Assembly: GCF_014764705.1 (NCBI RefSeq)
Contig: NZ_JACXXG010000010.1
Location: 1 to 64,000 of the forward strand
Direction: 5' to 3'
DNA length: 64,000 nt
From: Stutzerimonas kunmingensis
GTDB taxonomy: Bacteria > Pseudomonadota > Gammaproteobacteria > Pseudomonadales > Pseudomonadaceae
The position numbers and the translations under genes were made by a program. Below the pieces are notes generated by a model. It was given only the letters and a program-made list of their open reading frames with translations, made no database searches and had not been told where the DNA came from. Shown one piece after another: positions 47,808 through 63,158 of the stretch (the first letter of the stretch is position 1; each line of letters starts with the position of its first letter).

Positions 47808-47886
47808 CCGTAGGGTGGATGTCGCTTTTTACATCCACCTTGTTGCACGGCCATGGTGGATCGATGAAGCGTGATCCACCCTACGG
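47808..47886. repeat. Inverted-repeat element, copy 2
   Basis: CCGTAGGGTGGAT at 47808-47820 is inverted as ATCCACCCTACGG at 47874-47886, followed by TTTTTG. The interior has a further pair, GGTGGATC / GATCCACC. It shares its ends with the element at 34328-34424 and sits between the convergent kauB and glycosyltransferase genes, where it may terminate both transcripts. Confidence 0.75.
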
Positions 47887-47901: not shown

Positions 47902-49305
47902 CTAGCTTTGCCCCCACTGCCCGCTGCGACGCATTGCGCCCCAGTGGTGCTTGCGTCGCGAGAACCATTGCCAGAGCCCGCGGCAGCGCCAGACGGTGTT
48001 CAGCTGGCGGTAGCCGAAGTTCTCCAGCACGGCCATCAGAAACAGCTGCAGCATGTCGCGTCGGCGGCTGTAGACGCGGAACGACATGGTTTCCAGCAGC
48101 AGGCCGTTGACCGACAGCAGGATGCCCATGCCGATCGCCACCAGCAGGAAGGCCGCCAGCGCCGCGTAGGACACCGCACCGAAGGCGAAGCCGGCGAGCA
48201 TGAAGCCGTAGCCGACCAGCTCGATCAGCGGGCCGATCCATTCGAACAGCGCCATGAACGGCCAGGCCAGCCAGCCCGGCGTGCCGCCACGCAGGCTGAA
48301 GGCCAGCCGGGCATGCCGACTCAGGCTTTCGGCCAGGCCGCGTTGCCAGCGGCTGCGCTGGCGGCCCAGGGTGCCGAGGTCTTCCGGGCATTCGGTCCAG
48401 CAGATCGGATCGGGCAGGTAGCGGATGCGGTAGGGGATGCGCTTCTCGCGGTGATAACGGTGCAGCCGCACCACCAGCTCCATGTCCTCGCCGACGGTAT
48501 CGGTGCGATAGCCGCCGACCGCCATCACCCGTTCGCGGTCGAACAGGCCAAAGGCGCCGGAGATGATCAGCACGGCGTTGAGCGGCGACCAGCCGAGACG
48601 GCCGAAGAGAAACGCACGCAGGTATTCGACGATCTGGAAGCGCGCCAGCCAGTTGCGTGGCAATCCGGCTTGGATAAGAAAGCCGCCGCGCACCTGCGAG
48701 CCATTGGCGATGCGCACGGTGCCGCCGGCGGCGATGGTGCGTTCGTCCTCGAGGAAGGGCTGCACCACGCGCAGCAGGCTGTCGCGCTGCAGGATCGAGT
48801 CGGCGTCGACACCGCAGAACAGGCCGTAGCGCGCGGCATTGATACCGGCATTCAACGCATCGGCCTTGCCGCCGTTGGCCTTGTCCACCACCCGCAGATT
48901 GGCGTAGCGCCGCGAACGATAGATGGCCTGCACCGGTTGGTGGGCCACGGCCTGGCGCAGCGGCTCGGGGTGCGGCACCAGGTCGAATTCCTCGATCAGC
49001 ACGGCGAGGGTGTTGTCCTTCGAACCGTCGTTGATCACCACGATCTCGAACTCGGGGTACTGTAGCTGCAGCATCGAGCGCACCGAGGTGCGGATCGTTG
49101 CCTCCTCGTTGAAGGCCGGCATGAGCACCGACACCGGCGGTTCGACGCCGAGATAGGGCGCCAGCTCGCCGGTTTCCGCGCGCTGGCGGATGTAGCCCAT
49201 CAGGCTTGCCATCGACAGCAGGTTTAGCAGCAGGTACATGCCGTTGAGCAGCAGGAAGTAGAGAATGAAGGCGACCTGCAGCCACCACAGCCAGTCGACC
49301 GTCAC
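47902..49305 (-). CDS. Membrane GT2 processive glycosyltransferase (polysaccharide synthase)
   Basis: 467 residues from GTG 49305, whose GTGA overlaps the upstream stop. An N-terminal helix pair (about 5-36) precedes the GT-A catalytic domain: VSVLMPAFNEEATI, VVINDGSKDNT, ANGGKADALNAG, the DAD metal motif (167-169), catalytic GED (272-274, TVGEDMELV) and QRSRW (316-320) with following QRG. This is the set found in cellulose, PNAG and hyaluronan synthases. C-terminal helices occupy about 343-425. No PilZ domain is present. It should polymerise a sugar and thread it through the inner membrane. The nearest described relatives by layout are PgaC and E. coli YaiP. It is the last gene of the signalling/export cluster. 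Confidence 0.9.
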   Translation of the reverse strand: MTVDWLWWLQVAFILYFLLLNGMYLLLNLLSMASLMGYIRQRAETGELAPYLGVEPPVSVLMPAFNEEATIRTSVRSMLQLQYPEFEIVVINDGSKDNTLAVLIEEFDLVPHPEPLRQAVAHQPVQAIYRSRRYANLRVVDKANGGKADALNAGINAARYGLFCGVDADSILQRDSLLRVVQPFLEDERTIAAGGTVRIANGSQVRGGFLIQAGLPRNWLARFQIVEYLRAFLFGRLGWSPLNAVLIISGAFGLFDRERVMAVGGYRTDTVGEDMELVVRLHRYHREKRIPYRIRYLPDPICWTECPEDLGTLGRQRSRWQRGLAESLSRHARLAFSLRGGTPGWLAWPFMALFEWIGPLIELVGYGFMLAGFAFGAVSYAALAAFLLVAIGMGILLSVNGLLLETMSFRVYSRRRDMLQLFLMAVLENFGYRQLNTVWRCRGLWQWFSRRKHHWGAMRRSGQWGQS

Positions 49306-50426
49306 CGGCGCACCTCCGCCATGGCCCGGCGCAGGGCATCCCTGCCGTAGCGGTCGTGCACCTGCTCGAGCAGCTGCTGCAGCGCTTCGGTGGATGCGCC
49401 GGGCAGTGTCGCCAGGCTGTCGGCCGCCGCCTGGCGCACCCACCAGCTGCTGTCCGATAGCAGCGGCAGGAACAGTTCGCTGTCTTCGCGGCGTGCCTGT
49501 TTGTGCAATGCCTGCAGCGCCGCCAGACGCACGGTGTCCTGATCGTGCTGCAGGGCGCGTAGCAGGCGGTGGCGGTCGCGCGGGTCGCCGAGTTCGCACA
49601 GGCAGCGCAGCGCTACCTGCAGATATTCTGCCGGTGCGCCTTCGTCCAGCCGGGCACGGGCCCAAGGCGCGGCGTGGCGGGGATCGCCCTGCACGAGCAG
49701 GGGAACCAGACGCTCGCGACGCGGATCCTCCGAGGAGGACAGCACGATCAGCAGCGGCGTGGTCACGGCCTGTTCGCCAGCCTGCTGGCAGAGACTGATC
49801 AGCCGCGGCAGTGCCCAGTCGGGGCGATTCACCGCCGCCGGCAGGATCAGCGCCATGGCTTTGCTGGCATCCATCGCCACCAGGGTCTGGGCGGCGGAGA
49901 GGGCGACGATGGAGTTGCGGCTCAGCAGTAGCGGTTGCACCGCCTGCCAGTGCGCCGGGTCAGCCAGATGCCGCAGGCACGTCAGGCCGATCAGCTTGCT
50001 GCGCACTCTCCCGCGCAGCAGGATCAAGGCCTGGCGGTCGATGCCCAGAGCGATCAGCGCGCGGTTCATGCGCTCGCGTGCGGCCCCGCGCAACTGCAGC
50101 TGGGTGCGGTTCCACTGCAGCAGGAACCACAGCTGTCGCCGCCGTGGCAATGGCGCATGGCTGGGCGGGAGTTCGTCGCTCAAGCTGCAGAGGGCGAAGA
50201 AGGGCCGCCACTGTTCGTTGAACTGCTGCCGGCGTACGGTGCGCCGGCGTGATACCTCACCGAGCAGCAGCACCTGCAGCAGCACCAGCACCGTCAGTGC
50301 GCCGAGGCCGAAAGCGCAGTACAGAGCCAGCTGCAGCATGCGGTCTTCCGGCCAGAGCTGCGCCCAGGCGTTCGCCGGTGCTTCGCACAGCCAGCGGGGG
50401 CAGCGCGCCAGCCATTCAGAAAGCAT
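49302..50426 (-). CDS. Membrane-anchored HEAT-repeat protein
   Basis: 374 residues. One helix (about 31-56, LQLALYCAFGLGALTVLVLLQVLLLGEV) is followed by a basic cytoplasmic linker (SRRRTVRRQQFNEQWRPFF) and alpha-helical HEAT/PBS-lyase-type repeats (about 140-370), e.g. LIGLTCLRHLADPAHWQAVQPLL, SIVALSAAQTLVAMDASKAM, EYLQVALRCLCELGDPRDRHRLLRAL, TVRLAALQALHKQARREDSELFLPLL, WWVRQAAADSLATL. HEAT solenoids bind other proteins, so it may be the scaffold that joins the synthase to a regulator. It overlaps the YaiO gene by 11 bases and the synthase by 4. Confidence 0.85.
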   Translation of the reverse strand: MLSEWLARCPRWLCEAPANAWAQLWPEDRMLQLALYCAFGLGALTVLVLLQVLLLGEVSRRRTVRRQQFNEQWRPFFALCSLSDELPPSHAPLPRRRQLWFLLQWNRTQLQLRGAARERMNRALIALGIDRQALILLRGRVRSKLIGLTCLRHLADPAHWQAVQPLLLSRNSIVALSAAQTLVAMDASKAMALILPAAVNRPDWALPRLISLCQQAGEQAVTTPLLIVLSSSEDPRRERLVPLLVQGDPRHAAPWARARLDEGAPAEYLQVALRCLCELGDPRDRHRLLRALQHDQDTVRLAALQALHKQARREDSELFLPLLSDSSWWVRQAAADSLATLPGASTEALQQLLEQVHDRYGRDALRRAMAEVRR

Positions 50427-51552
50427 GACGCAGGCCGAGCTGCAGCCATTGACGGTCGTAGTAGCTGCCCTGCTGGTGATGGCCGATTTCCCAGCTCAGC
50501 GCCCAGCGGCTGTCGAACCAGTGGCGACCCTGCAGGCTGATGGCGCGCACGTCGCTGGTGATCAGCTGCTGTTCCTCCACCGCTTCTTCCTCGCCCACGG
50601 TCAGGCGCAGGCCGGCGTAGCTCAGGCCCTGGTAGTAGTAGTCCAACGCCACATCATGGCCGATTGGCGTGCCGGCATTGGCGACATCGGTGACGTTCAG
50701 CGTGTAGCCGGCGCGCCAGGCATTCCAGTAGCGCTCGGCGCTCAGCGCCAGGCGGTCGACCCGGGTCGTCTCGTACTCGGTGCGGCGGACACTGACAGCG
50801 CCGAGGTAGCCGTCCGGTAGCCGCCGCTGCAGGCGCAGATCGGCATGCCAATCGGGAAGGAAATAGGGTGACGGCTGGTAGCCGACCTCCGGTTGCAGGG
50901 TCCAGTTCTCGTCCAGCGCAATGACGGCGCCGGCTTCGACGCCTTCGTCCCACTCGCCGAAGCGTTGCTCGCGTGTCAGCGCGCCATACCAGCCGAGACT
51001 CTCCGGCTTCATCGAGGCGTAGTCCAGGCGCTGGCTGCGCCAGTTGTCAAAGCCGCTGTCGAGCCAGTCCTGGCGAGCAGAGATTTCCAGTTCGTGGCGT
51101 CGCCTGGTCGCGGCGTCGACGACCGGCACGGGCGCCGCTGCGGTGCTGGGCACGGTCAGCGCAGCACGGGCCTGCTGGATCACCTGCTGCACCTCGGCAT
51201 AGTCCGGGGCGAGCTGGGCGGCGCGCTCGAGCGATTGCAGCGCACGTTGCGGATGACCGGCCCAGAGTAGCGCCTGGCCCTCGCCGAGCAGATAGTCGGC
51301 GTTGTCCGGCTGATGCTGCAGCAGGCGGCGATAGATCGGCAGCGCCTGTTCAGGGTGGCCTTGCCAGCTCAATACGCGGGCGAGCAGGAACTGCGCCGCG
51401 GTGTCGTCCGGCTGCCCGGCCAGATGCGCCCGAAGTGTTGCTTCGGCCGCGTCCAGTTGTTGCGCCTGGACCTGCCGCTCGGCGGTGGTGACGTCCGCCA
51501 GCGCCGCACCGCAAGGCAGCGCCAGGGCAAGCAGCATTACCGCTCGCTTCAT
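50416..51552 (-). CDS. YaiO-family outer membrane beta-barrel protein with TPRs
   Basis: 378 residues. The signal peptide (MLLALALPCGAALA) is followed by periplasmic TPR units (about 22-130: AEATLRAHLAGQPDDTAAQFLLARVLSWQGHPEQAL, LLQHQPDNADYLLGEGQALLWAGHPQRALQSLERAAQLAPDY) and then a 12-to-16-strand barrel with alternating residues, many Tyr/Trp and a terminal Phe (LQLGLRHAF), the outer-membrane insertion signal. This TPR-plus-barrel plan matches polysaccharide export porins such as PgaA and the YaiO family. It likely carries the polymer made by the GT2 synthase across the outer membrane. Confidence 0.86.
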   Translation of the reverse strand: MKRAVMLLALALPCGAALADVTTAERQVQAQQLDAAEATLRAHLAGQPDDTAAQFLLARVLSWQGHPEQALPIYRRLLQHQPDNADYLLGEGQALLWAGHPQRALQSLERAAQLAPDYAEVQQVIQQARAALTVPSTAAAPVPVVDAATRRRHELEISARQDWLDSGFDNWRSQRLDYASMKPESLGWYGALTREQRFGEWDEGVEAGAVIALDENWTLQPEVGYQPSPYFLPDWHADLRLQRRLPDGYLGAVSVRRTEYETTRVDRLALSAERYWNAWRAGYTLNVTDVANAGTPIGHDVALDYYYQGLSYAGLRLTVGEEEAVEEQQLITSDVRAISLQGRHWFDSRWALSWEIGHHQQGSYYDRQWLQLGLRHAF

Positions 51553-51938
51553 CGGCGGCCCCTCAGCAGACGGCGGATGCGCGCCAGCAGTTCTTCCGGC
51601 TGGAACGGCTTGGTCACGTAGTCGTCGGCGCCGAGTTCCAGCGCTCGGACGATGTCCACTTCACGGGCCTTGGCCGTCAGCATCAGCACCGGCACGCTGT
51701 CCCAGCCGGGCTGCGCCCGCAGCCGTTCGATCAGCTCGAGGCCATCATGGTAGGGCAGCATGATGTCCATCAGCGTCAGGTCCGGCGGCTCGCTCTGGGC
51801 GAAGTACTCCAGTGCCTGCCGGCCATCGGCGGCGTGGTCGACCACGAAGCCGTGACGTTCGAGCATGTAGCGGATGAGAAAGGCGATGTCTTCTTCGTCT
51901 TCCACCATGAGAATGCGTTTGCTGGCGGATTCGCTCAT
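51549..51938 (-). CDS. Single-domain response regulator
   Basis: 129 residues, one receiver: LMVEDEEDIAFLIRYML, phospho-acceptor Asp in LTLMDIMLPYHDGLEL, Thr in LMLTAKAREVD and Lys in YVTKPFQPEELLARIRRLL. There is no output domain. It is sandwiched by ATGA overlaps between the hybrid kinase and the YaiO gene, so it is probably the regulator that acts on the export machine, perhaps through the HEAT protein. Confidence 0.93.
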   Translation of the reverse strand: MSESASKRILMVEDEEDIAFLIRYMLERHGFVVDHAADGRQALEYFAQSEPPDLTLMDIMLPYHDGLELIERLRAQPGWDSVPVLMLTAKAREVDIVRALELGADDYVTKPFQPEELLARIRRLLRGRR

Positions 51939-54811
51939 GGGTGAGCCTCGTCGGTTTCGTGTGTGTGCCCCGGCGGCCAGTGTTGCAGCAGGTGCTGGAT
52001 CAGCCTGGCCAGCTCATCGCCGTCGTGACGGGATTTCACCAGTTGGCGCAGCGCCAGGCGGTCGTCCTGAATCGGGGTGTCGAGCGCGGAAAAGATGATC
52101 ACCGGCGGCGGTGGGACGCTCTGCGCCAGCTGGTCGAACAGCTCGGTGCCCTGGCCGTCCGGCAGCATCAGGTCGATGATCGCCAGGTCGAAGGTCTGTG
52201 CCGCGATCAGCTCGCGCGCGTCGTGCAGCGTCGCGGCGCCGGAAAGATCGACATCGAGCGCGGCGATCTGCCTGGCCAGCAGCACCCGCAGGTCGTCGTC
52301 GTCCTCGACGTGCAGGATGCGCGGTTTGTGCCCGCCGAGCTGCAGACAGGCGCGGATCACGTCCATGACCCGCGAGGGGTCGATCGGTTTGTGCAGCCAG
52401 TCGATCACGCCCACCGCGCCGCCGCGCAGCGTGCCGTCGTCGTCATCGCGGCGCTGCGGCTGCAGGCTGACGATCAGCACCGGCAGGTTGCGGTAGTTGT
52501 GCTGGCTGCGCAGGCTCTGCAGGAAGGCCGCGCTGTTTTCGTCATCCAGCGCCGGGCTGAGGGTCAGTGCCTCAATGTCGAACTGCTGCAACAGTCGGCG
52601 TGCCTCGGCTGCGGTGCCGCTGATCAAGGTCGCGTAGCCATGCTGCTGCAGCGCCGCGGCCAGCTGCTCGGCCGCATGGGTGTCCGGCTCGAGGATGAGG
52701 ATCAACGCAGCATTGTCAGGCTGGGCTGCTCTGGCCGGCGGCGTAGTGGGTCGCTGCAGCGGCGTCGCGGATCGCACCTCCAGCGGCAGCTGCAGCCAGA
52801 AGCGCGAGCCGTGACCTTCCTGGGAATCGAAGCCGATCTGCCCGTGCATCTGCTGCACCAGCGAGCGGGTGATTGCCAGGCCCAGCCCGGTGCCGCCGCG
52901 CTGGCGGGCGTCGGAGGAATCGGCCTGGGCGAAGCGCTCGAAGATGCGCCCACGGAAAGCCTCGGGAATCCCCGGCCCCTGATCCTGTACGCCGAGTTCC
53001 AGCACGTTGTCATGGTGACGTAGATCGACCGTCACGCTGCCGCCGGCGGGGGAATGCTTGATCGCGTTGGACAGCAGGTTGGCCATCACCTGGGCGAAGC
53101 GGTCGGGGTCGACCATGGCTTCGCTCGACAGCGACTCATCGGCGCCCACCAGCGTGAGATTGACGTCGTAGTCGCGGGCGTACGGCTGGATATCCGACAG
53201 CGCCTGCTGCACCAGCGCGCGCACGTCATGGTGGCCGAAGTTGAAGGCCAGGCGTCCGGCTTCGAGTTTTTCGATGTCGAGGATGTCGTTGATCAGGCGC
53301 ACCAGGCGTTCGCTGTTCTTGTGAGCGATATCCAGCAGCGGGCGGGCGTCGTCGCCGATATGTCCGGCAATGCCTCCGATCAGCATACCGAGGGCGCCGC
53401 GGATGGCGGTCAGCGGCGTGCGCAGCTCGTGGCTGACGGTGGAGATGAATTCGGTCTTCATCTGCTCCATGCGTCGGCGCAGGGAGATGTCCACCGCCAC
53501 CGTGACCACATGACAGGTACGTGTCGAGATCCGCAGCGGGCGCTTGACCACCTGGAACCAGTGCTCCGCGCCATGGGCATCGGTCAGCGCGACCTCGGTG
53601 CTGCGCAGATCGCCGCTGCCTCCCGCCAGTTCGGCCAGCTCTTCGTCACCCAGCAGCAGCGGTTGCAGCCGCACGGCAGACGGCACCTCGTCGGGGCGGC
53701 GCTGCTCGATGTCCTGCGGGCGCACGTCCAGCAGGGCCGCGAGCGCCGAATTGCAGAGCAGGAAACGGCCCTGGGCGTCGCGAACAAAGATCAGGTTCTC
53801 GTCGGTGTCGACCACGCGGCGGAGAAAGACCTGCTGGTCGTGCAGGCTGTCGCGGTTGCGCTGCAGTTCGCTGACGTCGCGCGCGATGGCCAGATGATCG
53901 CCCAGCCCGGTGGGCGTCAGACGAACCTCGAATGTGCGCTGGGTCTGCAGCTCGCACCAGGTCTTCTGGCGCAGTGCGCCCTCGTCGGTCTGATTGAGCA
54001 GCTCGATGAGCAAGGGTTCGATCGCTTCCGGCGGCGGTGCGCGGCGCGGGGTGCCTCGCGAAATGCTCGACACCTGCTGCTGCTCATCGACCGCGTAGAG
54101 ATGGTCCGGGATGGCCTGCAACAGCGCCCCGAGGCGTGCTTCGCCGGCCTGAGCGCTGCGGGCGAGCTGCTGGCGAATCTGCAGATTCCGCTGCAAGGCC
54201 CAGAAGGCCGCCAGAAACAGCCCGATCACCACCAGCGTGCCGATCAGTGCCAGTTGCTGCGCGCGCTCGGTGGTGCGTGCCACGGCTGCGCTGGCGGCGG
54301 CCAGGTGGCTGCGCTCGTGCTGCTCGACGGCGTTGAGCAGTGCGCGCAGGCGGTCCATCAGCAGGTGCCCGCCGGCCTCGCGCAGACGCTCCACGGCAGC
54401 CTGCAGCCCGGCCTCGCGGCGGGTTTGCATGTTGCCGGCGGCTACTTCGAGGCGGTCGGCGATGGTCGCATCGAGGGTCCGGAACCAGCGTCGGTCGGGA
54501 TAATCACGTCCTTCGACCTGGCGCTGCAGGCTGCGTCGGTTGCCTTCCAGCTGTCTGAGGCCACGTTCGTAGGGTTCGAGATAGGTGGGGTCGCCGGTGA
54601 GGATGAAACCGCGCGAACCGGTTTCGATGTCCTGTAACGAAGAAAAGATAGCCTGGACCGAGGTGATGATTTCCAGGCTGTGGCTGACCGAGCGATTGGT
54701 CTGCAACAGCGCTTCCTGCGTGCGCTTGCCTTGCCAGCCAAGCGCGACGAGCAACAGAAACGCAGCGAGAAAGGCGATTGAGTGCCAACCGATCGCGAGT
54801 CTTGCGGGCAA
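51935..54811 (-). CDS. CHASE3-PAS-PAS hybrid histidine kinase with two receiver domains
   Basis: 958 residues from TTG 54811, supported by AAGGAG six bases upstream and the lack of a suitable ATG. Helices at about 10-27 and 188-206 bracket a periplasmic CHASE3 domain (GSRGFILTGDPTYLEPYERG). Two PAS domains (about 220-315 and 325-445) lead to HisKA His461 (STVSHELRTPLTAI) and an HATPase (NLLSNAIKHS, DQGPGI, GGTGLGLAI). The first receiver (about 702-825) lacks the phospho-acceptor Asp: the position reads ALTLSPALDD. The second (about 830-945) is complete with Asp880 in LAIIDLMLP. It starts a run of overlapping genes down to the synthase. Confidence 0.93.
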   Translation of the reverse strand: MPARLAIGWHSIAFLAAFLLLVALGWQGKRTQEALLQTNRSVSHSLEIITSVQAIFSSLQDIETGSRGFILTGDPTYLEPYERGLRQLEGNRRSLQRQVEGRDYPDRRWFRTLDATIADRLEVAAGNMQTRREAGLQAAVERLREAGGHLLMDRLRALLNAVEQHERSHLAAASAAVARTTERAQQLALIGTLVVIGLFLAAFWALQRNLQIRQQLARSAQAGEARLGALLQAIPDHLYAVDEQQQVSSISRGTPRRAPPPEAIEPLLIELLNQTDEGALRQKTWCELQTQRTFEVRLTPTGLGDHLAIARDVSELQRNRDSLHDQQVFLRRVVDTDENLIFVRDAQGRFLLCNSALAALLDVRPQDIEQRRPDEVPSAVRLQPLLLGDEELAELAGGSGDLRSTEVALTDAHGAEHWFQVVKRPLRISTRTCHVVTVAVDISLRRRMEQMKTEFISTVSHELRTPLTAIRGALGMLIGGIAGHIGDDARPLLDIAHKNSERLVRLINDILDIEKLEAGRLAFNFGHHDVRALVQQALSDIQPYARDYDVNLTLVGADESLSSEAMVDPDRFAQVMANLLSNAIKHSPAGGSVTVDLRHHDNVLELGVQDQGPGIPEAFRGRIFERFAQADSSDARQRGGTGLGLAITRSLVQQMHGQIGFDSQEGHGSRFWLQLPLEVRSATPLQRPTTPPARAAQPDNAALILILEPDTHAAEQLAAALQQHGYATLISGTAAEARRLLQQFDIEALTLSPALDDENSAAFLQSLRSQHNYRNLPVLIVSLQPQRRDDDDGTLRGGAVGVIDWLHKPIDPSRVMDVIRACLQLGGHKPRILHVEDDDDLRVLLARQIAALDVDLSGAATLHDARELIAAQTFDLAIIDLMLPDGQGTELFDQLAQSVPPPPVIIFSALDTPIQDDRLALRQLVKSRHDGDELARLIQHLLQHWPPGHTHETDEAHP

Positions 54812-54943: not shown

Positions 54944-56581
54944 TCAGCGCTGGGAGATCTGCACCTGGTTGCGGCCATTGTGCTTGGCCACATACAGCGC
55001 CTGGTCGGCACGCTCGAGCAGCAGGCCAGCGGGGCTGTGACCGTCGGTTTCGCAAATGCCGGCGCTGAAGGTCACGCAGAACTCCTGGTCGCCGGCATTG
55101 AAGCTCAGCGCGGCGAAGCGCACGCGGATTTCGTCGAAGATGCGCCGCGCCTGCAGGGCCGAGCATTCGGGCAATACGGCGACGAACTCCTCGCCGCCAT
55201 AGCGGCCGAGGCTGTCGATACGCCGCAGGCGCTGGCGCAGCAGGTTGGCCAGGGCGCGGATCACATTGTCGCCGGCGGCGTGCCCGTAGGTGTCGTTGAT
55301 CTGCTTGAAATGATCGAGGTCGAGCATCACCACGCTGGCGGGTTTGCCGGTGCGGGTGGTGCGCTGCACTTCCAGCGCCAGCTGTTCCTTGATATCGGCG
55401 TGCTTGAGCAGGCCGGTCAGGCTGTCGCGGGCCAGCGCCGTACTCAGCGAGCGCGCACGCTGGGCGTGGGAATACACCGCGGCCACCAGCGCGGTATCGC
55501 TGATCGGCTTGGTGATGAAATCGTCGCCGGCCTTGAGCAGCGCCGCCATCTGCCGGTGGGTATCGGTCTCGGCGGAAAGGTAGATGATGGTCACCCGCAG
55601 CCATTCGTCATGCAGGCGGATCATCTGCGCCAGCTCTGGCCCCGAGCAGTCCGGCATGTTGACGTCCAGCAGCAGTACCTCGGGGTTGAAGCTGCGCATG
55701 GTCTCCAGTACGCGGGTAGGTTCGGTGAGTATCTGCACCTGCATCTGCGCATTGCGCAGCACCAGGCTGTAGCGTGCTGCCAACTCGGCGTCGTCATCGA
55801 CGATCAGCACGCGGAAGGGTTCGCCCTGCTGGCGATCGAGGCAGCGCTCCAGGCTGTTCTCCAGCTGGGTGATATCCAGCGGGCGGACGAAGAAGCCCTG
55901 GGCGCCGGCACGCACCGCGGCCAGCTGGCTGGCGAAATCGGCCCGGTCGTGGATGACCAGCAGCGGCAGTGGCTGCTCGAGGCCTTGCTGCAGAGCAGCG
56001 AGCGCGTCGAAATCGCTGTCCTGCTGCACGCTGACGATCAGCGCGTCGGGCAGTTCATCGGCCACGGCCGCTTGCAGTGCGGCGAAGTTGGGCCACTGGC
56101 TGACCAGATAACCGAAGTTGCGCAGGGTCACCGCCATGCTGGCGCCCGCGACCGGATCGGCCTTCATCAGGTAGATGCGACAGCCGGGTGCAGGCTCCTC
56201 GTGGTGCTCCGGCAGTTCCGCCGCGCCGTCGCGTTCCTGGCCAGGGGTTTCGCCGGCCAACTGCAGCACCGCGCGGGCGAAGGCCTCGGCGGCGCGGCTG
56301 CCCGGCTTGGCCGAATCCAGCCAGCGGTCAGCCCGCTGCTCCAGCTGCCTGGCGCGCTCCCCGAGCTTGGCGAAGCCGAAGGTACCGGCGGCGCCGGCCA
56401 GCCGATGCAGGCGCTCGCGGATGCTCAGCATCACTAGCCGGCGGCTGGCGGTGGCACGGGTCTGCTGCAGATCCTGGGCGAGCGTGGCGAGGTCGGTCAG
56501 GTCGGCCTGCAGGCGCTCGCCGAACTGCTGTTCCAGCTGCGCCAGTTGCGCCTGCAGCGCCAGGCGGGTGCGATCATCCAT
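54944..56581 (-). CDS. Hpt-REC-REC-GGDEF diguanylate cyclase
   Basis: 545 residues from ATG 56581. An Hpt domain (about 5-125) has His59 in RLHRLAGAAGTFGF. The first receiver (about 134-250) is degenerate: DALIVSVQQDSD has no Asp at the acceptor site. The second (about 256-375) is intact with VDDD and Asp306 in VLLLDVNMPD, and Lys in ITKPIS. The GGDEF domain (about 385-545) has the active site GGEEF (462-466) and the product-inhibition site RRID (453-456) five residues before it. It should make c-di-GMP under phosphorelay control. It overlaps the upstream regulator by eight bases. Confidence 0.94.
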   Translation of the reverse strand: MDDRTRLALQAQLAQLEQQFGERLQADLTDLATLAQDLQQTRATASRRLVMLSIRERLHRLAGAAGTFGFAKLGERARQLEQRADRWLDSAKPGSRAAEAFARAVLQLAGETPGQERDGAAELPEHHEEPAPGCRIYLMKADPVAGASMAVTLRNFGYLVSQWPNFAALQAAVADELPDALIVSVQQDSDFDALAALQQGLEQPLPLLVIHDRADFASQLAAVRAGAQGFFVRPLDITQLENSLERCLDRQQGEPFRVLIVDDDAELAARYSLVLRNAQMQVQILTEPTRVLETMRSFNPEVLLLDVNMPDCSGPELAQMIRLHDEWLRVTIIYLSAETDTHRQMAALLKAGDDFITKPISDTALVAAVYSHAQRARSLSTALARDSLTGLLKHADIKEQLALEVQRTTRTGKPASVVMLDLDHFKQINDTYGHAAGDNVIRALANLLRQRLRRIDSLGRYGGEEFVAVLPECSALQARRIFDEIRVRFAALSFNAGDQEFCVTFSAGICETDGHSPAGLLLERADQALYVAKHNGRNQVQISQR

Positions 56582-56960
56582 GCTCGGCCTCCCAGATCTG
56601 CCGCAACTGGGTGGCAAGTTGCAGCGGGTCGAAGGGCTTGCCCAACACCTGGCGCACGCCGAGCTGGCGCAGCTCCTGCAGCCGTTCGGGCTGCAGGTGG
56701 CCGGTGAGAAACACCACGGGCGTCTGCTGCAAATCGACCAGATCGGCCAGTTGGCGAACCAGCTCGATGCCGTCCATCTGCGGCAGCATCACATCGAGCA
56801 GGATCAGGTCGGGGGCGAAGGCCTGTACCTGGTCGAGCGCGGCCTGGCCGGACTGACAGCTGAGCACTTCGAAGCCGCCGAGCTTTTCCAGGGCGATACG
56901 TGTCACCACCTGGATGGACGGTACGTCTTCGACGTGCAGGATGCGCTTAAGCTGTTTCAT
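56574..56960 (-). CDS. Single-domain response regulator (paralog of the 59446 gene)
   Basis: 128 residues from ATG 56960, which shares its first base with the stop of the upstream kinase (TGATG). RILHVEDVPSIQVVTRIALEKLGGFEV, Asp in LILLDVMLPQMDG, Thr in VFLTG and Lys in LGKPFDPLQLATQLRQIW form the receiver. About half of its residues match the regulator at 59446-59832 by eye, so the two arose by duplication. The coupled diguanylate cyclase with an Hpt domain follows directly; phosphate could flow kinase-regulator-Hpt. Confidence 0.93.
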   Translation of the reverse strand: MKQLKRILHVEDVPSIQVVTRIALEKLGGFEVLSCQSGQAALDQVQAFAPDLILLDVMLPQMDGIELVRQLADLVDLQQTPVVFLTGHLQPERLQELRQLGVRQVLGKPFDPLQLATQLRQIWEAEHG

Positions 56961-59371
56961 CACGGGCTCTCCTTGGCCTGGCCTTGTATGGGTAGTTCGA
57001 ACCAGAAGCAGGCGCCCTGGCCAGGTCCGGATTCGAAGCCGATCTGCCCGCCCATGTGCTCGATCAGCTCCTTGCTGATCGCCAGGCCCAGTCCGGTTCC
57101 GCCTTGCTGGCGGCTGTCGGACGAGTCGGCCTGGGCGAACTTCTGGAATACCCGCGCACGAAATTCGTCGGAAATGCCCGGGCCCTGGTCTCGGACGCTG
57201 ACCCGTACCCGGCCGTCACTGACCCGCGCCGACAGCTCGACCCGCTCACCGGCCGGGGAAAACTTCGCCGCGTTGGACAGCAGGTTGCTCAGCACCTGCT
57301 GCAGGCGCATGGCGTCGACCGTCACGTTCACCGGCGGGCAGGCGCCGAGTTGCAGTTGCACGCCATGCCGTTCGGCATAGCTGCCGTTGCTGCGCAGGGC
57401 CAGCTCCAGCTGCGGCTGCAGCGCTTGTTCGAGCATGTCGAAGCGCATCTTGCCGGCGTGCAGCTTGTCCATGTCCAGCAGGTCGTCGATCAGCGCGCTC
57501 AGGCGCAGGCTGTTCTGCTGGGTGATCTCCAGCAGCTCGTGCATCGACTCGGGTACTTCGCCCATGACGTTCGAGCAGATCAGCGCCAGGGCGCCGGTGA
57601 TGGAGGTCAGTGGTGTGCGCAGCTCATGGCTGACGGTGGAGATGAACTCACGCTGCAGACGCTCGATGCGCTTGCGCTCGGTGATGTCGTGCAGCACGAC
57701 TACCGCGCCCATGCGCTGGCCATCGGAGGTGTACAGCGGGTCGGCGTTGGACAGTACGTGCCGCGGTGCGCCATTGCTCAGCAGCACCATCTCGTGATCG
57801 ATGACGTGCTCGCCATTGAGGGCGCGGCGCAGGGGAATCTCCTCGGGTTCCAGCGGGGTGACGCCATCGGCGCGGTACAGCCGGTAATGGCGGGCCCATT
57901 CGCTCGGCGATAACGGGGCGACATCGGCGCCATGCCACTGTTTGGCCTTCTCATTGAAGAGGGTCAGATTGCCCTCGGCGTCGCAGGCGATCACCGCTTC
58001 GCTCAGCGCCTCAAGCAGGCGCCGGTTCATTTCCTGCTGCTTGTCCAGCTCCAGCTGCTCGGCCTTGCGCGCGGTGATATCGGTAACGAAGCCGTGCCAG
58101 AGCACCGAGCCATCGGCCTGCTGCAGCGGCGTGGCTCGTGCCTCGACCCAGATCAGCCCCTTGTGCGGGTGCTCGACACGGTGCTCGCTGTGCCAGGACG
58201 TGAGTTCACGAGCCGCCTGGCGGATGCTGAGCAACAGGGCGCTGCGGTCGGGGCCGTGGACCCGGCCGACGATCGGCGCAAAGCTGCTGGCCAGCTGCGC
58301 CGGGCTGAGCCCGTAGATCTGCTCGACCCCTTCACTGACATAGGGAAAGCACGCCGGCCCATCGGCGCGCCAGTGGAACTGGAAGAGCATGCCCGGGACC
58401 TGCGCGGCGATCTGCTGCAGGCGCAGTTGCAGCTGCTCCTGATAGGCCAGGTCGTAGGCGTTGATCAGGTAGCCGCGCTGGTGCTCCTGCTCGTCATGGA
58501 TCGCAGTCACGCCCAGCAGCACCGGCACCTCGTTGCCGTTCTGGTGGCGCAGGCGCCATTCGGACATGTCGCGCCGCCCGCGGTGCAGCGGCGCGCTCAG
58601 CACCGAGAAATCTGCCTCGACCGGCATCTGCAATTCGCTGGAAAGCAGCAATGCCCGGCGCTGCAGCGCCTCCGGACGGAACAGCGCGGCGGTCAGCGGA
58701 TGGCCGACCAGCGCCTGTTCACTGTAGCCCAGCAGGCGTTCGGCGGTCGGGTTGACGCTGGTGACCACGCCATCGGGGCGGGTCACCAGCACGGCGCTGG
58801 AGGCGCTGTCGAGGATCGCCTGTTGCAACGCCGCCTGCTCCGCATGGCGGTGCGCCAGCAGATGCTGCTCGAACAGGCGGATCACCTGGCGCCCGAGGCG
58901 CTCCAGGGTCTCGCGCTGCTCCGGGCTGAGGCGGCGTGGCTGGCGGTCGATCACGCACAGGGTGCCGAGGTTGTAGCCATCCGGCGAGGTCAGCGGCGTG
59001 CCGGCATAGAAGCGGATATGCGGATCGCCGAGCACCAGCGGGTTGTTGCTAAAACGCGGGTCCTGCAGCGTATCCGGTACCTCGAAGATCTCGTCGCCGG
59101 CGATGGTGAAGGTGCAGAAGGAGATCTCCCGCGAGGTCTCGCTGACGTCGAGGCCGACCCTGCTCTTGAACCACTGGCGGCGGTCGTCGACCAGCGAGAT
59201 CAGCGCGATCGGCGTGTCGCACATCTGCGCGGCAAGCGCTGTGAAGTCATCGAAGGCGCTGTCTTCGGGGGTGTCGAGGATTTCGTAGCGCAGCAACGCT
59301 GCCAGGCGTGACAGCTCGCGCGGCTGGGCGGTGGATGGCATCGGCGTCGTGCTTTGTTGCGGTGACTCCAT
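56960..59371 (-). CDS. GAF-PAS-PAS-PAS histidine kinase
   Basis: 803 residues. A GAF domain (about 22-172: RYEILDTPEDSAFDDFTALAAQ, FCTFTI, FYAGTPLTSPDGYNLGTLCVID), three PAS/PAC domains (about 180-305, 315-440, 445-568) and a HisKA with His582 (EFISTVSHELRTPLTSI) precede an HATPase (NLLSNAAKFS, RDQGPGI, GGTGLGLAISKELIEHMGGQIGFES). There is no membrane helix and no receiver, so it is a soluble sensor. The middle PAS (QFHWRADGPACF, then VLWHGFVTDITARK) parallels the first PAS of the 59879-62842 kinase. Confidence 0.94.
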   Translation of the reverse strand: MESPQQSTTPMPSTAQPRELSRLAALLRYEILDTPEDSAFDDFTALAAQMCDTPIALISLVDDRRQWFKSRVGLDVSETSREISFCTFTIAGDEIFEVPDTLQDPRFSNNPLVLGDPHIRFYAGTPLTSPDGYNLGTLCVIDRQPRRLSPEQRETLERLGRQVIRLFEQHLLAHRHAEQAALQQAILDSASSAVLVTRPDGVVTSVNPTAERLLGYSEQALVGHPLTAALFRPEALQRRALLLSSELQMPVEADFSVLSAPLHRGRRDMSEWRLRHQNGNEVPVLLGVTAIHDEQEHQRGYLINAYDLAYQEQLQLRLQQIAAQVPGMLFQFHWRADGPACFPYVSEGVEQIYGLSPAQLASSFAPIVGRVHGPDRSALLLSIRQAARELTSWHSEHRVEHPHKGLIWVEARATPLQQADGSVLWHGFVTDITARKAEQLELDKQQEMNRRLLEALSEAVIACDAEGNLTLFNEKAKQWHGADVAPLSPSEWARHYRLYRADGVTPLEPEEIPLRRALNGEHVIDHEMVLLSNGAPRHVLSNADPLYTSDGQRMGAVVVLHDITERKRIERLQREFISTVSHELRTPLTSITGALALICSNVMGEVPESMHELLEITQQNSLRLSALIDDLLDMDKLHAGKMRFDMLEQALQPQLELALRSNGSYAERHGVQLQLGACPPVNVTVDAMRLQQVLSNLLSNAAKFSPAGERVELSARVSDGRVRVSVRDQGPGISDEFRARVFQKFAQADSSDSRQQGGTGLGLAISKELIEHMGGQIGFESGPGQGACFWFELPIQGQAKESP

Positions 59372-59878: not shown

Positions 59879-62842
59879 TCAGAATCGATCTTGCGCCAGC
59901 GGCGCGACTGGTAATTCGCACCAGAAACAGGCGCCTTCGCCAGGCTCGGAATCGAAACCGATCCGGCCGTGCATGTGTTCGATCAGTTCCTTGCTGATGG
60001 CCAGGCCCAGGCCGGTGCCTTCCTTCTGGCGGCTGTCGGAGGAATCGGCCTGGGAGAATTTCTGGAAGATTCGTGTGTGGAATTCAGGGGCGATGCCCGG
60101 TCCCTGATCGCGTACCGAGATTCGCACCCAGTCATCGCGTCGCTCGCTGCCGAGCGTAACGGTGCCACCCTGCGGCGAGAATTTGACCGCATTGGAGATG
60201 AGATTGGCCAGTACCTGCTGCAACCGGTCGTCGTCTGCCATCAGCTGCACGTCCGGCGCGGGCAGCAGCTCCAGCGTGACGCCATGCTTGCTGGCGTAGC
60301 CCTGATTGGCGGCGATTGCCTGTTGCAGCTGCGTCGGCAGCGCATGCGCGCGCAGGTCGAGGGTCATCTTGCCGGCGACCAGCTTGTCCATGTCCAGCAG
60401 GTCGTCCACCAGGCGCCCCAGGCGCAGACTGTTCTGGTGGGCGATGCTGATCATCTGGCCCATGTTTGGCGAGGGTTCGCCCAAGGCACCGCCGACGATC
60501 AGGCCGAGGGCACCGGAGATCGAGGTCAGTGGCGTACGCAGCTCGTGGCTGACGATGGACACCAGTTCGCTCTTCATCCGCTCGATGCGCTTGCGTTCGG
60601 TGATGTCGCGCACCAGGCCGATGAATCGGCGCTCGCCGTGATGGTTGATCTGCGACACGCGCAACTCGATGGTGAAGGTTTCGCCGGTACGGCGCAGGGC
60701 GGTGAGTTCGCGGTTTTGTTCCAGCGCGCGAGGAATGCCGCGTCTTTCGTAGGTCTCCAGATAGCCGTCGTGGGCGGAGCGGTCCGGTTCGGGCATGAGC
60801 ATCGACAGGTTGCGGCCGATGACCTCCGCGGCGCTGTAGCCGAAGATCTGTTCGGCGGCATGGTTGAAGGTTTCGATGATGCCGCGGGCGTCGATGATGA
60901 TGATGGCGTCGATCACGTTGTCGATCAGCATGCTCAGGTAGCGCTCGCGCTCCTGCATCTCTTCCTTGGCCAGCGCCTGGTCGGTGACATCCCAGATGAA
61001 ACCGTCGCACCAGCCGACCGGGTCGTCACGCTCGTGCAGGACGCGGGCTTTTTCCCGCACGTAGACGGTGCGGCCTTCGGCATTGGTGAGTCGGTAGATG
61101 CCCTCGAAGGTGTCCTGCTCGGCGTGCTGCCGGGCCAGCTCGAGGTCGTCTGGGTGGATCAGGCTGGCGTAGCTGCGCACGCGGTCGCCGACGAAATCGC
61201 TGGCCGGGTAGCCGGTCAGGCGTTCGATGCCGTCGCTCAGGTAGCTCATGCGCCGGCGGCCGTCGTTGCGGCAGCGGTAGACCACGCCCGGGAGGTTGCC
61301 GACCATGGCGCGGTAACGGCTCTCGCTCTTCTGCAGCGCGCGGGTGGCTTCCATCAGTTCGGTGATCTCGGTGACGAAGCCGTGCCAGAGCACGGTGCCG
61401 TCAGGACGTCGCTCGGCGGTGGCACGTCCCTCGGCCCAGAGCAGACCGCGTTGCGGATGCTGGATGCGGAACTCCACCGAGCCGGTTGTCGACCCAGCTG
61501 CCACACGCAGCAGCGCGGCTTTCAGGCGTGGCAGGTCCTGCGGGTGAACGTGCACCAGGGCCTGGGAAGCATCTTCCAGTAGCCGCTGCGGGTCGATGCC
61601 GTAGAGGTCGCGTGCGCCCTCGCTGGCATAGAGAAAGGCATAGCGGCCGTTGGCGAAGCGCTTGAGCTGGAAAACCACACCGGGCAGCAGGCTGGCGATC
61701 TTCTGTGCGCGGTCGAGCAGGCGCTGGCGGCGTCGGCCCTGCTGTTGCTGGCTGAACTGATGCTGCAGCTGCGCGCCGATGCGCCGTTGCAGCAGTACCG
61801 CCAGGGTCAACAGCAGCGCCTCGGCGATCAGCCAGGCCAGACTCCATTTGATCAGCAGCCGGCGCTCGGCCTGTTGGTGCTCCTGCTGCATCGCGGTGAT
61901 GTCGCGCCAGACCAGCGCCGCTGCCAGCAGCGGCGCCGATGGCTGGGCCCGACGGTCGCTGTGCAGGGGAATCTGATTGAGCATATAGGTGCGGCCGTCG
62001 GCACTCAGCAGGCGCAAGGCCAGGCCGCTCTCCGGCTCGGGCAGCATGCTCTGCTGCGCCCAGTGCAGAATCTGTGTCGCCGAATGTTCGATCAGCAGCC
62101 AGCCGCCGTCGCTGCGCAGTTGCACGCCGCTGGGGGCTTCCACGTCTGCCGCCTGCAGTGCCTGGCGATTGACCACCAGCGCCAGTCCGGCAGCCAGCTG
62201 ATCGCCCAGCTCGGGCAATTCCGGCAGCACGTTGTAGCCGACTTCCAGGGCGCCGATGATCTCGCCGGACTCGCTGTCGGTGGCACGCAAAGGAACGATG
62301 GCGCGACTGCTGGCGCCGAGCGCATTGACCTCCATGCCGTACTGCATGCTGCCTTCGCTCATCGCGCGGCGCAGCATCGGGCGCTGCGCCGCCATTGCGT
62401 CACCGAAGCGCTCCGGTTGCTGCATGCGCAGCAGGGCGACCCCAGCGTCGCTCCAGAAGATCTGCAACTGCAACGCGCCGTGGCGTTGCATGGCGCTCCA
62501 GGCCGGGCTCAACGCGGCGCGCAGACGCTGACGTGCCAGCTCGATACGTGCATCGTCCATGGCCCGGCCATCACGTAGCGCCGTATCGATCTGGCGTACC
62601 TGGCGCAGCACTTCGGCATTGCCGGCCAGCGCCGTGGCGACCATGTCAGCCTGCCGCCGCTGATTGAGCTGCGCGCTCTGCAGTGCCAGGCTCTGCAGTT
62701 CGCCGTGGGTGTCGATTTCCAGGTGCCAGGCGGCATCGCGCGCGCGGTAGTCATTGAATGCCAGGCTACCGAACAGCAGCACGAGCAGCAGGCTGCCGAG
62801 CGTGAAGATCCAGTGGGGTGTGGTGATGCCGGCGTTCGTCAT
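59879..62842 (-). CDS. Periplasmic-sensor PAS-PAS-PAS histidine kinase with FixL-like PAS
   Basis: 987 residues from ATG 62842; the frame is open 47 codons further up without support. Helices at about 11-29 and 330-351 flank a long periplasmic CACHE-like domain (about 35-325). Three PAS domains follow: about 375-500, 505-625 and 630-755. The third contains LSMLMPEPDRSAHDGYLETY and NRELTALRRTGETF; by alignment to Bradyrhizobium FixL the heme-ligand His would be His691 and the distal Arg would be Arg711. HisKA His766 (SIVSHELRTPLTSI) and the HATPase end the protein. It likely senses a periplasmic ligand plus an intracellular signal, possibly O2. It is the promoter-proximal gene of the cluster. 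Confidence 0.92.
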   Translation of the reverse strand: MTNAGITTPHWIFTLGSLLLVLLFGSLAFNDYRARDAAWHLEIDTHGELQSLALQSAQLNQRRQADMVATALAGNAEVLRQVRQIDTALRDGRAMDDARIELARQRLRAALSPAWSAMQRHGALQLQIFWSDAGVALLRMQQPERFGDAMAAQRPMLRRAMSEGSMQYGMEVNALGASSRAIVPLRATDSESGEIIGALEVGYNVLPELPELGDQLAAGLALVVNRQALQAADVEAPSGVQLRSDGGWLLIEHSATQILHWAQQSMLPEPESGLALRLLSADGRTYMLNQIPLHSDRRAQPSAPLLAAALVWRDITAMQQEHQQAERRLLIKWSLAWLIAEALLLTLAVLLQRRIGAQLQHQFSQQQQGRRRQRLLDRAQKIASLLPGVVFQLKRFANGRYAFLYASEGARDLYGIDPQRLLEDASQALVHVHPQDLPRLKAALLRVAAGSTTGSVEFRIQHPQRGLLWAEGRATAERRPDGTVLWHGFVTEITELMEATRALQKSESRYRAMVGNLPGVVYRCRNDGRRRMSYLSDGIERLTGYPASDFVGDRVRSYASLIHPDDLELARQHAEQDTFEGIYRLTNAEGRTVYVREKARVLHERDDPVGWCDGFIWDVTDQALAKEEMQERERYLSMLIDNVIDAIIIIDARGIIETFNHAAEQIFGYSAAEVIGRNLSMLMPEPDRSAHDGYLETYERRGIPRALEQNRELTALRRTGETFTIELRVSQINHHGERRFIGLVRDITERKRIERMKSELVSIVSHELRTPLTSISGALGLIVGGALGEPSPNMGQMISIAHQNSLRLGRLVDDLLDMDKLVAGKMTLDLRAHALPTQLQQAIAANQGYASKHGVTLELLPAPDVQLMADDDRLQQVLANLISNAVKFSPQGGTVTLGSERRDDWVRISVRDQGPGIAPEFHTRIFQKFSQADSSDSRQKEGTGLGLAISKELIEHMHGRIGFDSEPGEGACFWCELPVAPLAQDRF

Positions 62843-63158
62843 CGGCGGGCCGGCCAGAGGCGCGAGGTGCTGCGCTCGACGTACGACGTTTGCATGAGCC
62901 GCAACTTTCCAAGGCAAAAAAGAAACAATGATAGCTCTATGCCAGTACGGCCGATAGCGTCTTTCGGGAATGCACGTCAGCATGGCGCCACGTACCGAAG
63001 CGTAGCGATTGCAGCCGAATCTGGCTAAAAAATCACCAGCTTTTAGACGGTCGGTCGGGCTGTTTCCTAGACTCGCCGACGCCTGGTGTTAGGCTGAAGG
63101 CAGGTGGACGCCAGCGGACGTCGCTGGTGCACCGTTCTGCAAGAGGCACCCCGTTATC
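62843..63158. other. 316-base gene-free region between divergent kinase and desaturase genes
   Basis: It should hold both promoters. CCAGCG-GACGT-CGCTGG (63111-63127) is a perfect 6-bp inverted repeat 32 bases before the desaturase ATG, and TAAAAAATCACCAGCTTTTAGACGG is the only AT-rich block. No gene, RNA or known operator could be recognised. Confidence 0.5.

Follow-up and report, generated by a model that had tools for sequence, protein, structure and literature searches.

Synthase-dependent polysaccharide systems (alginate, cellulose, poly-N-acetylglucosamine (PNAG) and Pel) are switched largely by cyclic diguanylate (c-di-GMP). PgaA of Escherichia coli has a tetratricopeptide-repeat (TPR)-barrel architecture, and Bcs systems possess the TPR-barrel exporter BcsC together with a PilZ domain and the partner protein BcsB. 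The E. coli NfrA/NfrB system, which makes the N4 receptor polysaccharide, combines a family 2 glycosyltransferase (GT2) with a TPR-and-pore protein, both encoded by overlapping, locally regulated genes; NfrB carries a c-di-GMP-binding MshEN domain, and Nfr is likewise switched by c-di-GMP (PMC8669469). In Clostridium perfringens, tabulated extracts for locus NELoc-2 place a 377-residue HEAT protein beside a 466-residue GT2 (CP4_0467/CP4_0468; PMC2879425), and a later C. perfringens comparison mentions the same locus (PMC5964661). Here we analyse a 64,000-nucleotide stretch of Stutzerimonas kunmingensis DNA (contig NZ_JACXXG010000010.1, positions 1 to 64,000; hereafter the window), in which genes for a response regulator, a YaiO-type barrel, a HEAT-repeat protein and a GT2 lie side by side. 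We consider, with good confidence, that this locus encodes a synthase-dependent polysaccharide secretion system having the HEAT protein as inner-membrane partner and the receiver as its probable switch. As such it is a widespread variant of synthase-dependent polysaccharide secretion, undescribed as far as the literature searched reaches: in open-access texts, some seen in part (most subscription journals and all preprints lie outside that search), we found neither a description of the GT2-HEAT-YaiO triad nor a HEAT partner tied to polysaccharide synthesis. Papers on Thauera, Wnt and Xanthomonas that surfaced in this search deal with other matters. The four genes are as follows.

47902..49305, minus strand: GT2 membrane glycosyltransferase, proposed polymer synthase (467 residues; PF00535/PF13641; invariant motifs; structural model)
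49302..50426, minus strand: HEAT-repeat protein, proposed partner subunit of the GT2 (374 residues; PF13646; N-terminal membrane helix; predicted cytosolic solenoid)
50416..51552, minus strand: TPR and YaiO-family outer-membrane beta-barrel, proposed exit pore (378 residues; PF19413, TIGR04390; C-terminal Phe)
51549..51938, minus strand: receiver-only response regulator, proposed switch (129 residues; PF00072, E-value 1.4e-32; Asp58, Thr88, Lys110)

Gene anatomy and conserved linkage

From 51938 to 47902 on the minus strand the order is receiver, YaiO, HEAT, GT2, with overlaps of 4, 11 and 4 nt. A sequence-only reading of the window had described three overlapping genes at 51552-47902 (a GT2 with DAD, GED and QRSRW motifs, an anchored HEAT protein and a TPR-barrel protein with terminal Phe); coordinates, frames and profiles bear this out, although the receiver gene had been overlooked as a fourth part. 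The GT2 gene runs from a GTG start at 49305 to a stop at 47902, and its product (PF00535, E-value 2.8e-23) contains the motifs NDGS, DAD (167-169), GED (272-274) and QRSRW (316-320). The HEAT protein (PF13646, E-value 5.3e-11) has a single hydrophobic segment at 37-55, followed by GEVSRRRTVRRQ. The third protein, with a hydrophobic N-terminus (residues 4-22) and TPRs, belongs to the YaiO family by both PF19413 (E-value 6.4e-26; 91.8 bits, cut-off 23.9) and TIGR04390 (143 bits, cut-off 32).

Within the genus, a full-length HEAT orthologue is present in 24 of 37 genomes (the source genome included), and because all 24 keep the response regulator, YaiO, HEAT and GT2 genes side by side, the gene set is not there by chance; two further genomes matched HEAT weakly and over part of its length only, and the 21 genomes taken from the order's other families gave no match. 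Across the 23 other same-genus genomes the GT2 is the slowest-changing part (85-99% identical to that of the window) and the HEAT protein the fastest (63-97%), the nearest named relatives of the window GT2 being Stutzerimonas proteins at 99% identity. Among 274 genomes of the class, using E-values up to 1e-60 for the GT2 family and PF19413 for YaiO, the former occurs in 14, the barrel in 17 and both in 13 (Fisher test, 5.6e-18, relatedness ignored). The GT2 genome lacking a PF19413 match (G146) has a match to our own barrel profile upstream, and YaiO occurs alone of the two in G247, G263, G269 and G319. HEAT matches above 100 bits were found in 12 class genomes; 11 of these also have the GT2, and in the remaining one, G247, the match lies next to YaiO, at base 5 of its contig.

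A profile scan of GTDB gave at least 538 GT2 relatives, of which the best 80 were kept as loci, a set that includes near-copies and leans to close relatives. These span 11 named phyla, plus two loci without a phylum, and include many metagenome bins; titles include Stutzerimonas, Vreelandella, Massilia, Stenotrophomonas, Nitrospira, Clostridium and Desulfosporosinus. A HEAT homologue is present in 77 of the 80 and adjoins the GT2 gene in 69 (L071, scored as separate by script through an over-long reading frame, being counted as adjacent from its coordinates). The other eight, all titled Nitrospira or Nitrospiraceae, have the HEAT gene 0.3-6.2 kb away, on the other strand or divergent in five; barrel and hydrolase-like genes were also observed between or beside the two in these loci (L083, L090, L091, L098, L099, L102, L112 and L128). 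HEAT was not found in loci L088, L089 and L103, the last belonging to a genome with a HEAT-YaiO-hydrolase run elsewhere. RefSeq annotation gives, in order, an ATP-binding protein, two response regulators, YaiO, HEAT and GT2 on a Mesorhizobium plasmid, and a response regulator, a HEAT-similar protein, GT2, YaiO and a lipoteichoic acid (LTA) synthase in Emticicia. A metagenome bin titled Klebsiella pneumoniae (L111), a label that may be wrong, also carries the unit. Gene starts in the wider collection of 93 loci (including two duplicates, L054 = L097 and L057 = L121) are those of the longest open frames, and small gaps or overlaps there are therefore unsafe.

The minimal export system proposed in the sequence-only reading would have to be given up if its three genes rarely co-occurred; the HEAT gene in 77 of 80 loci and the association of GT2 with YaiO across the class instead demonstrate strong co-occurrence. 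A chance run of unrelated envelope genes, for which the sole point is that the parts are unlinked in some genomes (e.g. Nitrospira, Massilia), is refuted by this co-occurrence of GT2, YaiO and HEAT and deserves practically no credence; moreover, none of the five other GT2 matches in the source genome adjoins a HEAT gene. Nor was one found in the E. coli yai, pga, bcs, nfr or opg regions.

The barrel is distributed according to cell envelope, diderm or monoderm status being assigned from the lineage in genome titles. It occurs in 61 of the 80 loci; the 19 without it comprise six from monoderm lineages (Clostridium twice, Desulfosporosinus, Symbiobacteriaceae and Acidimicrobiia twice) and 13 taken as diderm. 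At genome level a barrel is present in 71 of 74 diderms (61 in the locus by our own profile and ten elsewhere by PF19413), whereas the YaiO domain is found in none of the six monoderm genomes having HEAT-GT2, a search in which all five positive controls were detected. The simplest reading is that HEAT and GT2 form an inner-membrane core and that YaiO, an outer-membrane TPR and beta-barrel protein with a predicted export role, is the outer-membrane part, needed only where an outer membrane exists. Amongst the ten barrels found elsewhere, that of L172 lies with HEAT and hydrolase genes, and for seven no GT2-family gene was found in the roughly 3.5 kb read around them.

The glycosyltransferase family

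The GT2 is a membrane protein carrying the DxD, GED/TED and QxxRW motifs found in synthase-dependent exopolysaccharide systems. In alignment A9, comprising the window sequence and 55 of 62 non-redundant references (the second GT2 of L051, L059-L063 and L074 being excluded), the catalytic motifs are invariant across all 56 sequences; this statement does not extend to L059-L063, and so the loss of the GED motif from the GT2s of L061 and L062, which keep its Asp, falls outside it. By eye, L061, L062 and L063 are divergent HEAT-GT2-YaiO loci beside NAD-dependent epimerase-like genes, and perhaps have another substrate or a weakened enzyme.

By profile score the family stands apart from the other GT2s to which it was compared. 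The 21 members scored reach 419-797 bits, and the six of them outside the profile-building set (Mesorhizobium, Emticicia and L059-L062) 419-619 bits. Outside the family, the highest scores are those of an Acidithiobacillus GT2 (148 bits), PgaC (130) and a PgaC-like GT2 in L051 (122), followed by YaiP (51), NodC (46), BcsA (31) and NfrB (13), with the lipid glycosyltransferases YfdH and ArnC at 29 and 24 bits. The structural model (predicted local distance difference test (pLDDT) 90.4) reaches its best Z-score, 31.8 with 338 residues aligned, against the archaeal mannosyltransferase 6yv7, ahead of a viral hyaluronan synthase (29.5 over 394 residues), BcsA (19-26, maximum 26.1) and a yeast chitin synthase (about 22), whilst Foldseek ranked hyaluronan synthases first.

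These data bear upon whether the GT2 is, instead, a non-processive glycosyltransferase acting on lipid or surface glycan, with YaiO and HEAT serving another envelope task, an alternative that we judge improbable. It would accord with the few hydrophobic segments in the GT2 and with the match to 6yv7, whose acceptor we take to be a lipid; since this enzyme tops the list by Z, the predicted fold does not separate a polymerase from a lipid glycosyltransferase, which counts against a synthase. The tree, also to be counted on that side, has very long branches and gives no resolved order among the processive references, and a branch that sets the family off from all else recurs in 86% of bootstrap replicates (support only 37/68); BcsA and NfrB were trimmed to their glycosyltransferase parts for this purpose, while OpgH and all but one of the five own-genome GT2 matches were dropped beforehand. 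Conversely, the family profile scores PgaC well above YfdH and ArnC, the QRSRW and DxD motifs are kept, the TPR-barrel partner is confined to diderms, and hydrolase-like and sulfatase-fold genes adjoin many relatives. That the GT2 might cluster with lipid glycosyltransferases had been named in advance as an outcome that would refute a synthase; those of ArnC/GtrB type score low on the profile and lie distant in the tree, which is, however, rooted on them and poorly resolved, and 6yv7 heads the fold list. The earlier proposal of a minimal synthase-dependent export system withstands both of its checks, through co-occurrence and profile scores, and is supported in part; the likeness of the predicted fold to hyaluronan synthase also speaks for a polymer synthase.

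HEAT protein, receiver and proposed control of the synthase

Gene context, with HEAT so regularly encoded beside the GT2, points to this protein as a candidate inner-membrane co-polymerase or regulatory partner. An N-terminal hydrophobic segment is present in all 70 HEAT sequences of alignment A8 (the window and 69 of 81 references, excluding L058-L062, L068, L072, L074, L081, L118, L127 and L134), and the model (pLDDT 94.4) predicts a 54-residue helix (29-82) that would pass through the membrane and run into the solenoid. The positive flank after the membrane segment, taken with the positive-inside rule, places the solenoid in the cytosol. Structural matches to the model are artificial alphaRep and importin-type repeats, which are uninformative on function. 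A defence role was considered and rejected, PADLOC matches being weak and at domain level only (HEAT 1.9e-6, receiver 6.4e-9).

In 54 of 77 loci, the window included, a receiver gene is found upstream, before HEAT or, if YaiO leads, before YaiO. Here "upstream" denotes a same-strand frame ending between 150 bases inside and 1900 bases before the HEAT profile start, the latter limit being chosen because the YaiO gene may lie between. These 54 loci come from eight named phyla, and in the rest of the 80 no receiver was detected at all; 43 of the receivers have at most 160 residues, seven have 161-400 and four are longer. All six monoderms possess one, of at most 160 residues by longest frame in three cases. 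Among 46 aligned receivers (upstream receivers of up to 250 residues plus that of the window) the phospho-accepting Asp is kept in 43 and the Lys in all. The profile was grown from the window receiver and misses divergent ones; for example, the gene at L101:7401-7835, directly upstream of HEAT, resembles that of a receiver with typical motifs lost and was missed by the profile. No receiver-HEAT fusion was found among the open reading frames examined. Gene order, and the predicted cytosolic location of both proteins, suggest that the receiver acts on HEAT. In the window, further signalling genes continue the cluster upstream on the same strand, the first overlapping the receiver gene by 4 nt:

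51935..54811, minus strand: CHASE3-PAS hybrid histidine kinase with C-terminal receiver domains, likely the upstream kinase (domain matches; start codon uncertain)
54944..56617, minus strand: Hpt/REC/GGDEF protein, probably a diguanylate cyclase within this set of regulators (PF00990, PF00072, PF01627)
56960..59371, minus strand: GAF-PAS histidine kinase that may belong to the regulatory set (domain matches)
59879..62983, minus strand: PAS histidine kinase that may also belong to this set (domain matches, among them a weak dCache-like one)

In the mechanism that we propose, the GT2 would polymerise a nucleotide-sugar in the inner membrane and thread the chain across it. HEAT, with a single helix as anchor and a cytosolic solenoid, would be the constant GT2 partner, taking the structural and regulatory part played elsewhere by PgaD or PilZ modules; that it replaces such partners is suggested by the near-constant HEAT-GT2 linkage. 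In diderms the TPR part of the YaiO protein would receive the chain in the periplasm and the barrel let it out; monoderms would require no barrel. Most likely the upstream-encoded receiver, on which hybrid histidine kinases would act in the window, serves as a switch for the GT2 by way of the HEAT solenoid; the latter might enfold the GT2 and present a surface on which the receiver docks. More specifically, and only tentatively, a phosphorylated stand-alone receiver may dock directly on the membrane-tethered HEAT solenoid, itself an obligatory subunit of the GT2 in this view, giving protein-level phosphorelay control of polymerisation in monoderms and diderms alike that would replace c-di-GMP sensing by PilZ or PgaD.

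Alternatively, the secretion system may be as described with a different switch, namely c-di-GMP as in Pga and Nfr, such that HEAT is a scaffold only and the receivers act on the neighbouring diguanylate cyclase or kinases. The REC-GGDEF protein in the cluster, GGDEF genes in 21 of the 80 related loci (kinases occur in 30) and the precedent of PgaC/PgaD, which bind c-di-GMP without a PilZ domain, lend this some weight. The 56 GT2s, however, match nine Pfam families in all, and neither these nor the families matched by 70 HEAT proteins include a PilZ or MshEN-type domain; upstream receivers are considerably more frequent than GGDEF genes; we therefore regard c-di-GMP control as a minority possibility, albeit one to be taken seriously.

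Several observations, in addition to the fold and tree results and the GED losses above, weigh against secretion with receiver control. The 80 loci are a selection biased in the manner described. HEAT is weak or absent in three of the 14 class-level GT2 genomes (G149, 83 bits; G122, 66 bits; G290, none at 1e-12), albeit that in G149 and G290 a HEAT-like gene adjoins the GT2 by eye and profile. Three diderm genomes (G331, G335 and G338) have no YaiO match; one of the ten barrels found elsewhere (L171, L186) is near another GT2, and another (L173) belongs to a second REC-YaiO-HEAT run. Finally, no receiver was detected in 16 loci whose sequence leaves 2 kb or more for one (13 of these are of Stenotrophomonas or Nitrospira type), nor in seven others where the space is smaller. 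Nevertheless, a widespread GT2 family with a HEAT partner, and with a receiver domain as the commonest further neighbour, emerges from these comparisons. If confirmed, the proposal would add a synthase class across titled genera from Stutzerimonas to Clostridium and others, give a role to YaiO-family barrels, and make it possible to test directly if a polymerase can be gated by a phosphorelay with transcription playing no part.

Neighbouring genes and comparison with known systems

That the cluster lacks a modifying enzyme holds for the ten genes scanned in the window, and does not carry over to relatives, whose loci contain a candidate hydrolase-like TIM-barrel gene and a sulfatase-fold (LTA-synthase-like) gene. 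The hydrolase-like family (alignment A6) occurs in 27 of 93 loci (26 of 91 once the two duplicates are removed), with D369 and E371 invariant in the 17 sequences aligned; its profile matches PDB entry 10yv, a "putative GH97", at 2.4e-16, and the five members scanned gave no meaningful Pfam match. No homologue was found in the genome from which the window derives, in a search made without positive control. YaiO, sulfatase-fold and hydrolase-like genes follow HEAT-GT2 in that order in Stenotrophomonas-type loci. The same succession was seen in Massilia G330 (L184:4441-8882; a barrel, a 783-residue sulfatase-like protein, so assigned by eye, and a 310-residue hydrolase-like protein), on another contig than the REC-HEAT-GT2 genes of that genome; as the latter locus has a second hydrolase-like gene adjoining GT2, the two modules are not sharply divided.

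Other proteins were noted near HEAT-GT2. Those of alignment A7 (L135, L136, L137 and L140; three Clostridia loci and one Gemmatimonadetes locus) have about 700-900 residues and a secretion-like N-terminus; they gave no PDB profile match, and the L140 protein no Pfam match. Directly behind REC-YaiO-HEAT-GT2 in L051 (L051:11035-13978) lie the PgaC-like GT2 and its own YaiO-profile-matching protein, with no HEAT gene. In the window itself a convergent aldehyde dehydrogenase gene lies 3' of the GT2 gene, and between the two is an inverted repeat at 47808-47886 (CCGTAGGGTGGAT...ATCCACCCTACGG), a 13-mer of which has 7 copies in the genome (reversed control, 0); this is possibly a dispersed terminator-like element.

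Set against described systems, the C. perfringens CP4_0467/CP4_0468 pair is alike as a HEAT-GT2 pair in a monoderm, a likeness drawn from its tabulated description only; in the portions of that paper available, the GT2 is called a "chitin synthase" and tied to chitin use, and no secretion system is proposed (PMC2879425). The E. coli yaiO-yaiX-yaiP-yaiS region similarly has a YaiO barrel near a GT2, but differs in its broken acyltransferase gene, its putative deacetylase, the lack of a HEAT gene and the low family score of YaiP. NfrAB resembles the locus in combining a GT2 and a TPR-pore protein from overlapping genes under local regulation, and differs in the MshEN domain, found on none of the 56 GT2s, and in the very low score of NfrB. 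Bcs has the GT2 fold in common, although PilZ and BcsB were not found here (ten window genes; 56 GT2s). With PgaABCD, the E. coli poly-beta-1,6-GlcNAc system, the differences are that the partner is HEAT rather than PgaD, that the barrel is of YaiO type, and that the window GT2 scores 141.6 bits against a PgaC/IcaA cut-off of 422.3; neither PgaD nor the PgaB deacetylase/hydrolase was found when the ten window genes were searched with Pfam and NCBIfam (for six in NCBIfam, among the matches listed). Nonetheless, no other E. coli reference, nor NodC, scores as high on the family profile as PgaC, and the combination of a membrane GT2 synthase with a TPR-barrel exporter is common to PgaABCD and the locus described here.

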